Shown: positions 3,363-35,410 of the stretch, in pieces
How positions within the stretch are numbered: position 1 is the first letter of the stretch
How the letters are laid out: each line of letters begins with the position of its first letter
Assembly: GCA_019114985.1 (NCBI GenBank)
Contig: DXEM01000040.1
Coordinates: forward strand, 1 to 35,410
Length of the DNA stretch: 35,410 nucleotides
Direction of reading: 5' to 3'
Origin: Candidatus Anaerostipes excrementavium
GTDB lineage: Bacteria; Bacillota; Clostridia; Lachnospirales; Lachnospiraceae
Program-made: the position numbers and the translations under genes
Notes under the pieces: model-generated
What the model was told of the DNA's origin: nothing
The model's database searches: none
What the model saw: the letters and a program-made list of their open reading frames with translations, nothing else

Positions 3363-4583
3363 TTATAAAATAAAATGTTTTGGTACGCCGTTTTCATATG
3401 GAATTTTTACTTCTCCCTGGATCAGCGGCGTAAGATATTCCATCAGCTCTTCTTTAATATCCTTTCCATCTTCTGTGATCCATTCCAACGGAACGGTTTT
3501 CTCATAATTGGCAATTTTATCAAGATCCGCTAATTTGATCTTTACCTGATATGGATGATTGGAAATCCGTTCAATCACAGACATCTTTCCGCTCTCTCCC
3601 CGAACAGCACTGATTGCGGCAAACGCTCCCAGGTTCCTGGATTCCATAATGTCCGTTTCGCTTAACATATATCCTGCACAGCGCTGAAGAACATTCAATT
3701 CGACCGAACGCACTTTGCATCCGATTTTTTCCCCTACCAGACCTTCCAAATATTTTCCGATGCCGGAAAGATATTTATGTCCAAATGCATCTTCTTTCCC
3801 GGATTTTGTCTCTTCTCCGACATAATGACCTTGTGCGTCTTTAACGCCTTCGCTGACTGCTATGATAATATTATTCTCTTTTTTCAACGCTTCCCTGACG
3901 TCACTTAAGAAACGCTCTTCATCAAAAACCTTCTCACACAGATAGATCAGCTGGGGAATTCTTCTTTGTTCTGTTCTTGCCAAAGCCGCGCTGGCTGTCA
4001 GCCATCCTGCGTTTCTTCCCATGACTTCCACGATCGTGACAGAAGGAACATCATAGACAAAGCTATCGCAGCCAATCTCTGTGAAAGCTGTCGCAATAAA
4101 CTTTGCGGCAGATCCAAATCCCGGACAATGATCCGTCTCTCCCAAGTCGTTATCGATCGTCTTTGGAGCTCCCATGACCTTAATATCGTCGATTCCATGT
4201 TCTTTGCAGTATTCGGATAACTTATGCACTGTATCCATGGAATCATTTCCGCCTGTATAGATGAAATATCCGATCTGATTCTTCCTTAAGACTTTGATGA
4301 TCTTCTCAAATTCCGCTGCATTTTCCTTCGGATCTTTTAATTTCCATCTGCAGGATCCTAATGCCGCAGCAGGGGTCACAGCAAGCAAATTCCTTTTTTC
4401 TTTTGATTCAAAGATCTCATCTAACATTACAAAATTCTCATTCAGAACTCCCTTGATTCCATGCAGGGCTCCGTAGACATGGCCTACTTCCTTACTCTCT
4501 AATCCTGCATCGATGACTCCGGTAATCGTAGCGTTAATTGCCGCGGAAGGGCCGCCTGACTGAGCAACCAATAAATTCTTCAT
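3363..4583 (-). CDS. pfp: Pyrophosphate-dependent 6-phosphofructokinase
   Basis: Reversible fructose 6-phosphate/fructose 1,6-bisphosphate conversion using pyrophosphate, in the cytoplasm. The 406-residue protein shows the PFK fold motifs in order: SGGPSAAINA (9-18), GGNDS (111-115), PKTIDND (140-146) and MGRNAGW (188-194). ATP-dependent enzymes have GGDGS and PGTIDND; the Asp at position 114 and Lys at 141 are the replacements that mark pyrophosphate users. This should allow both glycolytic and gluconeogenic flux. Start ATG 4583 has AGGAGG upstream. It is convergent with the YihY-family gene and appears to have its own promoter, 3' to the araM homologue on the same strand. Confidence 0.93.
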   Translation of the reverse strand: MKNLLVAQSGGPSAAINATITGVIDAGLESKEVGHVYGALHGIKGVLNENFVMLDEIFESKEKRNLLAVTPAAALGSCRWKLKDPKENAAEFEKIIKVLRKNQIGYFIYTGGNDSMDTVHKLSEYCKEHGIDDIKVMGAPKTIDNDLGETDHCPGFGSAAKFIATAFTEIGCDSFVYDVPSVTIVEVMGRNAGWLTASAALARTEQRRIPQLIYLCEKVFDEERFLSDVREALKKENNIIIAVSEGVKDAQGHYVGEETKSGKEDAFGHKYLSGIGKYLEGLVGEKIGCKVRSVELNVLQRCAGYMLSETDIMESRNLGAFAAISAVRGESGKMSVIERISNHPYQVKIKLADLDKIANYEKTVPLEWITEDGKDIKEELMEYLTPLIQGEVKIPYENGVPKHFIL

Positions 4584-4611
4584 ATATACCTCCTTGCGTA
4601 TCTGCTAAATA

Positions 4612-4654
4612 CTTTTATCAATTATACTACATTTTGTCAAGTTGTTCTGAACAA
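4612..4654 (-). promoter_or_regulatory. Probable pfp promoter with adjacent palindrome
   Basis: TTGACA (4635-4640) with a 17-bp spacer to TAAAAG (4612-4617) is the best-spaced sigma-A pair. A perfect TATAAT at 4621-4626 is too close to that -35 box to pair with it, so the exact -10 is open. Just upstream is the palindrome TTGTTC-T-GAACAA (4642-4654), placed like an operator; its regulator is unknown. Confidence 0.45.
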
Positions 4655-34352: not shown

Positions 34353-34385
34353 CGTTCTTCTATCCTTTCTCCATCGTCTAATATG

Positions 34386-34427
34386 AAAAAAAGCCATAAT
34401 ACCGATGCCTATGATCAGTACCACAGC
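34386..34427 (-). terminator. Intrinsic terminator between the tRNA-like element and metN
   Basis: On the minus strand GCTGTGGTACTGAT (34414-34427) pairs over 14 bp, including several G-U, with ATCGGTATTATGGC (34393-34406) around a 7-nt loop, followed by seven Ts (34386-34392). Its position suggests either a tRNA-unit terminator or a metN attenuator. Confidence 0.7.
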
Positions 34428-34434
34428 CTTTCTA

Positions 34435-34479
34435 ATGAGCGTGCGGGGATTCGAACCCCGGACAACTTGATTAAAAGTC
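34435..34479. repeat. Direct repeat copy 1 (tRNA-Lys 3' half)
   Basis: Forty-five bases identical to 35366-35410, from the anticodon loop to just past the 3' end of a tRNA-Lys on the minus strand. Beyond position 34479 comparison is impossible because the window ends in copy 2. Copies are 931 bp apart and enclose the PBECR-type gene and the hairpin RNA. Such 3'-half duplications are typical att sites of integrases using tRNA genes. Confidence 0.85.
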
Positions 34480-34508
34480 AAAAGACTTAATGCCGTTGTA
34501 CGCCTATA
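34436..34508 (-). pseudogene. tRNA-Lys(UUU)-like element with degenerate 5' half
   Basis: The minus strand shows a perfect T arm (CGGGG-TTCGAAT-CCCCG), a 5-nt variable loop, an anticodon arm with loop CTTTTAA (anticodon UUU) and the acceptor 3' arm CACGCTC plus discriminator A. The 5' half is wrong: the acceptor partner should read GAGCGTG but the sequence is AGGCGTA with mismatches at both ends, and the D region (ACAACGGCATTAAGTC) cannot make a normal D stem. I call it a tRNA remnant or tRNA-like leader. A perfect promoter lies upstream and a terminator downstream. Confidence 0.6.
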
Positions 34509-34556
34509 AAATAAGCCATTTCCCCACAAAAGTGGAATAAAAATGGAACTTCCTGT

Positions 34557-34585
34557 ATTATATAAGACGTATAAATCTTTGTCAA
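34557..34585 (-). promoter_or_regulatory. Consensus sigma-A promoter upstream of the tRNA-like element and metNI
   Basis: TTGACA (34580-34585), 17-bp spacer, TATAAT (34557-34562): a perfect match to consensus on the minus strand. The transcript would start near 34550 and first form a CCATTT/AAATGG hairpin (about 34515-34545), then the tRNA-like sequence, then the terminator before metN. It is the only good promoter seen for metNI. Confidence 0.85.
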
Positions 34586-34653
34586 TAAGAAAATCCTAAA
34601 AACACCACCGGGGATTTTTGAATAGCGCAGCTAAAATCACTGCAATCATAAAA

Positions 34654-34755
34654 GCAGAAAGATATTCGGTGGGTGTGCCCCTTCCCACATTTCTTTTGAC
34701 CCAAAGGGTGTGTAGCAGCACAATCTCTACTTCAAATATCTCTCTGCTTATTGTA
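34654..34755 (-). ncRNA. Unrecognised structured RNA (long hairpin)
   Basis: The arms GCAGAGAGATATT (34735-34747) and AATATCTTTCTGC (34654-34666) form a 13-bp stem with one G-U, closing an irregular region of about 68 nt with GC-rich blocks (ACACACCC, GGGGCACACCCACC). A consensus promoter ends just upstream, placing the 5' end near 34755. No ORF is present. It does not match 6S, SRP, RNase P, tmRNA, SAM, TPP or T-box signatures that I know, although the shape (closing stem, large internal loop) is loosely 6S-like. The 3' end is unclear; an AAAATCC/GGATTTT stem lies near 34590-34615. Confidence 0.45.
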
Positions 34756-34760
34756 TTTAT

Positions 34761-34789
34761 ATTATAGCGTTTTTATCCCTTTTTGTAAA
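34761..34789 (-). promoter_or_regulatory. Promoter of the structured RNA
   Basis: TTTACA (34784-34789), 17-bp spacer, TATAAT (34761-34766) on the minus strand. The -35 box lies in the last codons of the PBECR-type gene. Confidence 0.75.
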
Positions 34790-35183
34790 GAACGCTATCT
34801 TTTCCAATTAAACCGCTGTTTTTTTCAACCATTTTTCTTAAGTTACGTTCTCTAATTCTATAAAACGTCATTACAGAGTTTTTTAATCCTTCTTCATCTG
34901 TCTCAAGAGCAACTCTTACCACAACATTCAAATTCGTATTAGGTAGCTTTCTTATCATAAAAACAGTTCCCTCATTTTTCCCATCCTTGATTATAATATC
35001 TGGATCACGAACTGTTTCTGCTCCATATTTGATGAATAATTCATAGTCTTCCGGGTGTCTTACCTTTATATGCTCTTCTCGTTCATTTGTTACAATTATC
35101 TCATCTGTTTGAATTTTCCCAAATTCTTTCTCTATAATCATAACCTCTTTTTTTATCTTGGCCAAAAAGCGTATCTTATTCAA
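34773..35183 (-). CDS. PBECR-type (phage Barnase-EndoU-ColicinE5/D-RelE-like) nuclease domain protein
   Basis: A 136-residue stand-alone protein. From about residue 15 it shows the pattern FGKIQTDEIIVTNEREEHIK, RHPEDYELFIKYG, DPDIIIKDGKNEGTVFMIRK and LNVVVRVALETDEEG, which I match to PBECR2-like domains: predicted RNases of the Barnase/EndoU/colicin E5-D/RelE fold found in phage and mobile-element proteins. His19 of the EEHIK...H pattern and later Arg residues are candidate catalytic positions; this is inferred. The start is TTG 35183, supported by GAGGGGG 5 nt upstream and by a promoter whose -10 box excludes longer starts; ATG 35141 is a weaker alternative. The gene is AT-rich relative to neighbours and lies between tRNA-Lys repeats, suggesting acquisition by transfer. 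Confidence 0.7.
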   Translation of the reverse strand: MNKIRFLAKIKKEVMIIEKEFGKIQTDEIIVTNEREEHIKVRHPEDYELFIKYGAETVRDPDIIIKDGKNEGTVFMIRKLPNTNLNVVVRVALETDEEGLKNSVMTFYRIRERNLRKMVEKNSGLIGKDSVLYKKG

Positions 35184-35214
35184 TTCCGCCCCCTCTTTCG
35201 CATCAGATAAATTA

Positions 35215-35242
35215 ATTATATCAAAATTAAAATCTTTTGCAA
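35215..35242 (-). promoter_or_regulatory. Promoter of the PBECR-type gene
   Basis: TTGCAA (35237-35242), 16-bp spacer, TATAAT (35215-35220) on the minus strand, about 32 bp before the TTG start codon. Confidence 0.7.
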
Positions 35243-35323
35243 CTATTTGAGAACAAAAAAAGGGAATATTTGTAACAAAAAAAATTAGAACTATGAGATG
35301 CCGGAAACCCGCATAAATACAAG

Positions 35324-35361
35324 AAAAACGCTGCTTCCGGTATCTTCCAGAAGACAGCGTT
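35324..35361 (-). terminator. Terminator after the tRNA-Lys at the window edge
   Basis: On the minus strand AACGCTG with inner CTTC pairs with GAAG and CAGCGTT (35327-35337 / 35350-35361), followed by TTTTTC. It lies five bases after the tRNA 3' end and probably ends that tRNA unit. Confidence 0.75.
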
Positions 35362-35365
35362 TCCG

Positions 35366-35410
35366 ATGAGCGTGCGGGGATTCGAACCCCGGACAACTTG
35401 ATTAAAAGTC
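35366..35410. repeat. Direct repeat copy 2 (tRNA-Lys 3' half)
   Basis: Identical to 34435-34479 over all 45 visible bases; the repeat may continue beyond the window. Confidence 0.85.
35367..35410 (-). tRNA. tRNA-Lys(UUU), partial (3' half)
   Basis: The visible part on the minus strand is the anticodon loop CTTTTAA, anticodon 3' stem, variable loop, T arm with TTCGAAT and acceptor 3' arm CACGCTC with discriminator A; CCA is not encoded. The 5' half lies beyond the window edge. A terminator directly follows, so this is probably the functional copy from which the remnant at 34436 derives. Confidence 0.7.

Follow-up and report, generated by a model that had tools for sequence, protein, structure and literature searches.

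A conserved pair of PBECR-type nuclease gene and skipping-rope RNA, a probable toxin-antitoxin module, in an insertion at a tRNA-Lys 3' end of Candidatus Anaerostipes excrementavium

Within the 35,410-nucleotide stretch of DNA analyzed here (the window, which is the whole of contig DXEM01000040.1, referred to as C33, of assembly GCA_019114985.1), we found a PBECR nuclease gene followed by a skipping-rope RNA, and the two form a conserved unit. The nature of this pair is probably that of a toxin with its RNA antidote. Judged by sequence, the insert that carries the pair would most likely be a type III-like toxin-antitoxin module, comprising a BECR-fold RNase as the toxin and a pseudoknotted RNA as the antitoxin in reversed gene order. 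For this module, we infer toxicity, RNA cleavage, an excess of the RNA, RNA-protein binding, and toxin release.

The unit lies on the minus strand of an 886-base insert with a GC content of 34.0%, and the nuclease gene itself reaches 31.9%, compared to 42.7% for the window, in agreement with the AT-rich nuclease gene that a preceding sequence-only reading of this DNA had described. The gene (34773-35183) encodes 136 amino acids and, as inspected by eye, appears to start with a TTG codon at 35183, preceded by the ribosome-binding site GAGGGGG; a histidine of the protein, H38, is conserved. The structured RNA that had likewise been noticed was identified by an Rfam search as skipping-rope RNA (RF02924; 34661-34740; 60.4 bits compared to a gathering score of 36.7), with an outer stem extending a few pairs beyond these coordinates. 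The same reading had assigned a separate promoter to each of the two, and a promoter scan indeed placed promoter-like sites on the minus strand just before the nuclease gene (TTGCAA-16-TATAAT with TG before the -10 box, 35215-35242) and before the RNA (TTTACA-17-TATAAT, scoring 11/12, 34761-34789), with the -35 box of the latter inside the last nuclease codons. In total, 8 promoter-like sites, some of them overlapping, were found in the region 34380-35410, compared to 3.4 +/- 1.6 expected. A perfect TTGACA-17-TATAAT site is additionally located on the minus strand at 34557-34585, in the stretch that separates the RNA from the orphan tRNA half described below, and is directed towards metN. Furthermore, the same genome carries a second unit on contig C10, where a PBECR2 protein gene followed by a skipping-rope RNA adjoins a tRNA-Lys(CUU) gene.

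The designation of the protein as a PBECR-type nuclease, made before any database search, was confirmed by its match to the Pfam family PBECR2 (PF18810; 38.2 bits, cut-off 27.1), and 37 relatives were found in named genomes. Likewise, 9 of 10 scanned proteins from RNA loci proved to be PBECR-type, matching best as PBECR3 (PF18812, up to 97.9 bits) or PBECR2, with a lowest pairwise identity of 8% in an alignment of 27 nucleases. A fold search of the AlphaFold model of the nuclease (pLDDT 82.2) against the PDB returned no match at E <= 0.001, and the RNase fold is therefore based on the Pfam profiles, according to which the protein would be a BECR-fold RNase. A PDB profile search with the nuclease yielded only S4P (E 0.94), Pfam and NCBIfam held no ToxN, CptN, or TenpN match for the window protein and its relatives, PADLOC gave a single weak match, to AbiC (E 0.0037), for the four proteins submitted, and a viral contig scan with the nuclease of locus L029 found no relative. 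In 3 cases, the domain forms the tail of a longer protein and is followed by the RNA: in a Phage_min_cap2 protein (L025, RNA 41 nt after), in a Phage_Mu_F protein (L050, RNA 31 nt after), and, with a domain of the window type, in a fecal phage record that was found via its RNA (L209).

The cleanest count of the association comes from PF18812, since this profile was presumably made without regard to the RNA. Among 200 genomes of the family, 17 of its 19 matches over the cut-off had RF02924 within a few hundred bases. One exception, in G177, is a different protein of 195 amino acids, and the other, in G084 (L129), is a full-length standalone nuclease without detectable RNA; the 4 matches below the cut-off comprise 3 with RNA (G014, G128, and G013) and 1 without (G135). 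Searches with an alignment of nucleases (A2) and with the window nuclease gave similar numbers, although these counts are not fully independent, as A2 was built from RNA-adjacent nucleases and the RNA model R1, applied to the relatives of the window nuclease, from the 58 RNAs. Across 398 genomes of the phylum, 20 of 22 matches (2 of which are pieces of one G506 gene) were located beside the RNA, including 1 in G535 whose RNA was detected by the permissive search alone; the exceptions are a match with an internal stop and the RNA approximately 1.8 kb away (G569, 5e-9) and a match without RNA (G537, 6e-5). In the 200 family genomes, A2 returned 37 rows: 26 of the 27 with E <= 1e-20 had the RNA, the exception again being G084, and 3 of the 10 weaker rows lacked it (2 in G048, 1 in G160). 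Finally, when the window nuclease was compared to one genome each of 84,980 species, 33 of 37 loci had the RNA shortly downstream in the same orientation. The remaining 4 correspond to a contig that ends less than 100 bases from the gene (L190), a broken gene (L195), and 2 matches of 24 residues (L204 and L205).

Plasmids and phages carry the unit as well, with the RNA beside the nuclease in all 17 testable records. These were drawn from 26 distinct records, 14 of which were fetched and 4 evaluated by blastn; 8 plasmid records stand outside the count, as does Javan254, whose record ends at the gene. By Rfam search, the RNA was found in 13 of 13 records, 12 of them over the gathering score and 1, from Azospirillum, below it (30.9 bits), and blastn positions placed an identical RNA beside the nuclease in 4 more Streptococcus phage records. 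Plasmids with the unit include pTA1060 of B. subtilis and records from Fusobacterium, Treponema, Planococcus, Priestia, Brevibacillus, Sporosarcina, Macrococcus, and B. velezensis, while the phages include Streptococcus phage phiJH1301-1. Lereclus and Arantes (1992) reportedly described a locus for plasmid stability, spbA, on pHT1030, and Streptococcus phage members of the present family are annotated as spbA, a likeness by annotation name alone. In both pTA1060 and the B. velezensis plasmid, the skipping-rope RNA is adjoined by the Rfam Bacillus-plasmid RNA (RF01691; L160:2017-2072 and L215:1716-1771).

Viewed from the side of the RNA, the association is looser. A PBECR-type reading frame was found in 38 of 58 RNA loci, 36 times on the same strand and upstream of the RNA (2 fragmentary frames overlap its start) and twice on the opposite strand, both in G473. 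Several of these 38 frames are nuclease fragments or bear stop codons (e.g., L026, L031, L040, L049, and L066), with the RNA over the gathering score. No nuclease was found in the other 20 loci, including 2 in which the contig starts too close to judge (L056 and L058). Hence, a nuclease without the RNA is rare and the RNA without a nuclease is common, as expected of a toxin and its antitoxin.

The skipping-rope RNA was reportedly first described by Weinberg et al. in 2017. Our literature search, which covered titles, abstracts, and passages of works other than this original description, found no link between the RNA and a nuclease. RF02924 was detected in 36 of the 200 family genomes and in 28 of the 398 phylum genomes, compared to 0 of 14 control genomes in each survey; the 2 surveys amount to 82 distinct matches, and sequences were taken for 58 loci. 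The folding energy of the RNA region in the window is low on both strands (z -4.68 plus, -4.62 minus), so the strand cannot be told by energy alone. Relatives within the RF02924 set show covarying stems and a loop-loop pseudoknot: the loop of stem 2 can pair with that of stem 4, with a mean complementarity score of 10.9 for cognate compared to 7.2 for non-cognate loops (0 of 20,000 permutations, which ignore relatedness). At least nine different pairing sequences form this helix across the family, and in nine well-aligned relatives picked from the 58, 100% of cells were paired and 3 of 6 pairs were changed on both sides. The RNA of the window (L065) retains the pairing of UGUGCU with GGCACA. 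The loop-loop pairing was set aside as a new discovery, since a figure legend in the Rfam 14 paper already depicts a pseudoknot for this RNA (PMC7779021); our data are thus probably a confirmation. Tandem skipping-rope RNAs were observed as well (L203:5625-5846, L175:4407-4629, and in G190, G013, and G198, the latter with three copies), recalling type III antitoxin arrays.

An improbable alternative to an antitoxin is that the RNA acts in cis as a 3' element of the nuclease mRNA, affecting its stability, termination, or translation. The RNA does lie mostly on the same strand, up to 86 nt past the nuclease stop codon, and the outer stem together with T-runs could terminate transcription in several copies. 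However, the RNA is located on the strand opposite to the nuclease in pTA1060, the B. velezensis and Planococcus plasmids, and G473 (as well as in Azospirillum, with a match below the cut-off), and promoter-like sites precede it. Of the 58 loci, 23 have a site of at least 10/12 ahead of the RNA and 35 do not, with a mean best score of 9.2 compared to 7.8 in shuffled sequence; in L169, the -35 box TTTACA lies within the last nuclease codons as in the window (by eye). Moreover, a cis-acting element is at odds with the 20 loci in which no nuclease was found and with phages that have the RNA alone. The latter are the Enterocloster phages CB457P2 and CB473P1 (RF02924 at 65.5 bits) and the streptococcal satellite phage Javan99 (68.1 bits), none of which has a nuclease match at E <= 1 in its whole record. 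The solitary RNA in the approximately 100 kb Enterocloster sewage phages without PBECR match (L206:2994-3073 and L208:2994-3073) is a possible decoy. Based on the promoter-like site, the opposite strand in some loci, and the solitary copies, the skipping-rope RNA appears to behave as an independent gene.

Plasmid stability loci often employ antisense RNAs, and this favors the idea that the RNA base-pairs with the toxin mRNA as a type I/VIII-like regulator, a reading to which we nevertheless assign very little probability. Across 27 pairs, cognate duplexes of the RNA with the start region of the mRNA were no better than permuted ones (-22.9 compared to -23.4 kcal/mol; 3872 of 5000 permutations did equally well), and duplexes with the coding sequence fared likewise (3503 of 5000). 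An antisense mode was therefore not supported. Distances between the RNAs are correlated with those between the proteins (Mantel r 0.83, 0 of 5000 permutations, 27 pairs), but linkage alone yields co-inheritance, so this is no proof of an interaction, and the Mantel and pairing permutations ignore relatedness. Taken together, the pseudoknot, the lack of preferential mRNA pairing, and the asymmetric occurrence fit a protein-neutralizing RNA, as in type III systems and AbiF/RCd22.

The proposed toxin-antitoxin module resembles the type III systems ToxIN, CptIN, and TenpIN in combining a small RNase-like protein with a pseudoknotted RNA gene, the latter known here from its structure. It differs in that the toxin is unmatched by ToxN or CptN models and in the arrangement of the RNA, which follows the toxin, has a promoter-like site of its own, and normally consists of one copy of approximately 80-100 nt, though tandem in some loci. 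Type III antitoxins, by contrast, are described in a passage of PMC5086642 as short RNA repeats and a terminator placed before the toxin. One locus holds a CptIN-type toxin gene (L011:1602-2090, minus; NF047359, 155 bits; PDB 4RMO, E 7e-21) directly before a skipping-rope RNA (1501-1583). This CptN was rejected as the partner of the RNA: since a leader-like region and a terminator belong to the toxin gene itself (by eye), it is taken to be a neighbor. For AbiF/RCd22 of C. difficile, passages of PMC12373285 describe how an RNA neighboring the gene of an RNase-like protein turned out to be an antitoxin that binds protein; the likeness lies in an RNA motif adjoining an RNase-like protein, whereas there the toxin is HEPN-like and the RNA, with two motifs, is placed before the gene. 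The MuF-type polyvalent phage proteins (Iyer et al., 2017) share the Pfam domain PBECR, and 2 units described here are C-terminal domains of minor capsid and Mu F proteins. However, most of our units are standalone, and two passages of PMC5512222 mention no RNA partner for the polyvalent proteins.

As for its mechanism, the PBECR2 protein would belong to the barnase/EndoU/colicin/RelE group and act as a small RNase toxin, while a separate promoter at the 3' end of the toxin gene would supply the skipping-rope RNA in excess. The RNA would fold into a pseudoknotted particle that binds the toxin protein and blocks it, and the toxin could be set free once RNA synthesis falls, either because the element is lost or because a phage shuts off host transcription. 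The unit is carried on plasmids, phages, and chromosomes, and here in an insertion at the 3' end of a tRNA-Lys gene. If true, the proposed mechanism would provide a function for an RNA family that had none, and would extend RNA-neutralized toxins by a second fold and an inverted order of the genes. More tentatively, skipping-rope RNAs may widely serve as antitoxins against BECR-fold RNases. These would include toxins that are fused to phage head proteins (minor capsid, MuF) and could enter the cell together with the phage, and the solitary copies of the RNA in bacteria and nuclease-free phages could be decoys or immunity RNAs against such toxins. This could explain how phages with PBECR-tailed head proteins spare their lysogens.

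The insert is bracketed by a direct repeat, the copies of which (34435-34479 and 35366-35410) are 931 bases apart and, as had been noted from the letters, identical over 45 of 45 bases. The last 131 bases of the window are identical to the first 131 bases of contig C9 (C9:1-131), and extension across this junction completed the right-hand copy (35366-35410, minus strand) to an intact, 76-nt tRNA-Lys(UUU), followed by tRNA-Gln(CUG) and a T-box leader, which substantiates the earlier identification of the repeats as the 3' half of this tRNA. In the comparison with C9, the identical block measures 47 bases and spans the tRNA from the anticodon stem, 5' strand included, through its 3' end. ARAGORN called no tRNA gene in the window, and the left copy (34435-34481, minus strand) is thus an orphan half, while the right copy is the 3' half of an intact gene. 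Directly after the intact tRNA-Lys and inside the insert, a sequence scan found a hairpin resembling an intrinsic terminator (35334-35353, minus strand).

Evidence for the origin of this arrangement comes from 11 genomes of the genus, including the present one, that were queried with metN and the orphan half; metN loci whose fetched flanks contained no tRNA (L068, L070, and L072-L075) were left out of the site comparison. In 2 of the 11 genomes (G604 and G605), one intact tRNA-Lys(UUU) and tRNA-Gln(CUG) come immediately after metN, corresponding to the empty site for which a comparison of relatives had been suggested. Furthermore, the orphan half together with the tRNA-Lys terminator region next to it (34385-34434, minus strand; 34385-34479 in total) aligns with intact tRNA-Lys genes over their 3' end and terminator (89% in G596, 91% in G597), suggesting that it is the original 3' end, now displaced. 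Given the single intact tRNA-Lys after metN in G604 and G605, the window carries an insertion of approximately 0.9 kb at a tRNA 3' end. As in tRNA-integrated genomic islands, there is an intact tRNA at one end, a repeated 3' half at the far end, and an empty site in relatives, but the insert differs from such islands in its size of approximately 0.9 kb and in lacking an integrase: in its 886 bases, only the nuclease and the RNA were identified and no integrase was recognized, as stated previously for this stretch of less than 1 kb.

While the insertion footprint proposed by the sequence-only reading is thus backed by the empty site, the duplication of an attachment site is not the only possible source of the repeat. 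It could instead be the decayed second tRNA-Lys of a tandem Gln/Lys array that the cassette fell into, a rather unlikely origin that concerns the repeat only and is compatible with the toxin-antitoxin reading. Tandem tRNA-Gln/tRNA-Lys arrays do occur in G596 and G602, where they are followed by a terminator, a metQ-like gene (by eye), and then metN, and at a contig end in G597. On the other hand, the identity block starts in the anticodon stem and reaches the tRNA 3' end, as is usual for tRNA-targeting integrases; the window retains neither a 5' half nor a second tRNA-Gln; and G604 and G605 show a single pair within the fetched stretch.

Flanking repeats were uncommon elsewhere. Exact repeats of at least 13 bases were found around the nuclease relatives in only 1 of the 30 loci tested (of 37), and direct repeats were therefore rejected as a general signature of a mobile element. 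The single case, L169 from Mediterraneibacter glycyrrhizinilyticus, has a perfect 58-base direct repeat around the nuclease-RNA unit (L169:3792-3849 and 4581-4638), which corresponds to a tRNA-Leu terminator. The repeat-flanked insertions that the window and L169 show at tRNA 3' regions, as well as the constant pairing of the nuclease with a structured RNA, would suit a ribonucleoprotein enzyme or a mobile element whose nuclease is guided or activated by the RNA. We regard this as improbable, since nothing resembling a variable guide was noticed, the loops that vary pairing with each other instead, and since solitary RNAs, which are common, would be unexplained for a guide without its enzyme. 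Moreover, the ends of the insert are unlike between the window and L169, and thus define no transposon ends.

A functional link between the nuclease and the tRNA-like sequence, which had been considered conceivable, was not supported: the constant partner of the nuclease is the skipping-rope RNA, irrespective of where the unit is inserted. A tRNA gene was detected in just 9 of 95 loci (58 RNA loci and 37 nuclease loci, for which up to 1.5 and 4 kb of flanking sequence were included; the tRNA-Lys of the window, cut by the contig end, is excluded from this count). The tRNA was therefore rejected as a partner or target of the nuclease and would be its insertion site at most. For the unit on C10, no second copy of the 3' part of tRNA-Lys(CUU) was found within 3 mismatches. 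A tRNA gene lies shortly upstream of the unit and on the same strand in the window, on C10 (tRNA-Lys(CUU)), in L169, and in L173, which hints at an insertion preference in this clade. The C10 unit is also surrounded by an imperfect direct repeat (L004:879-931 and 1603-1656).
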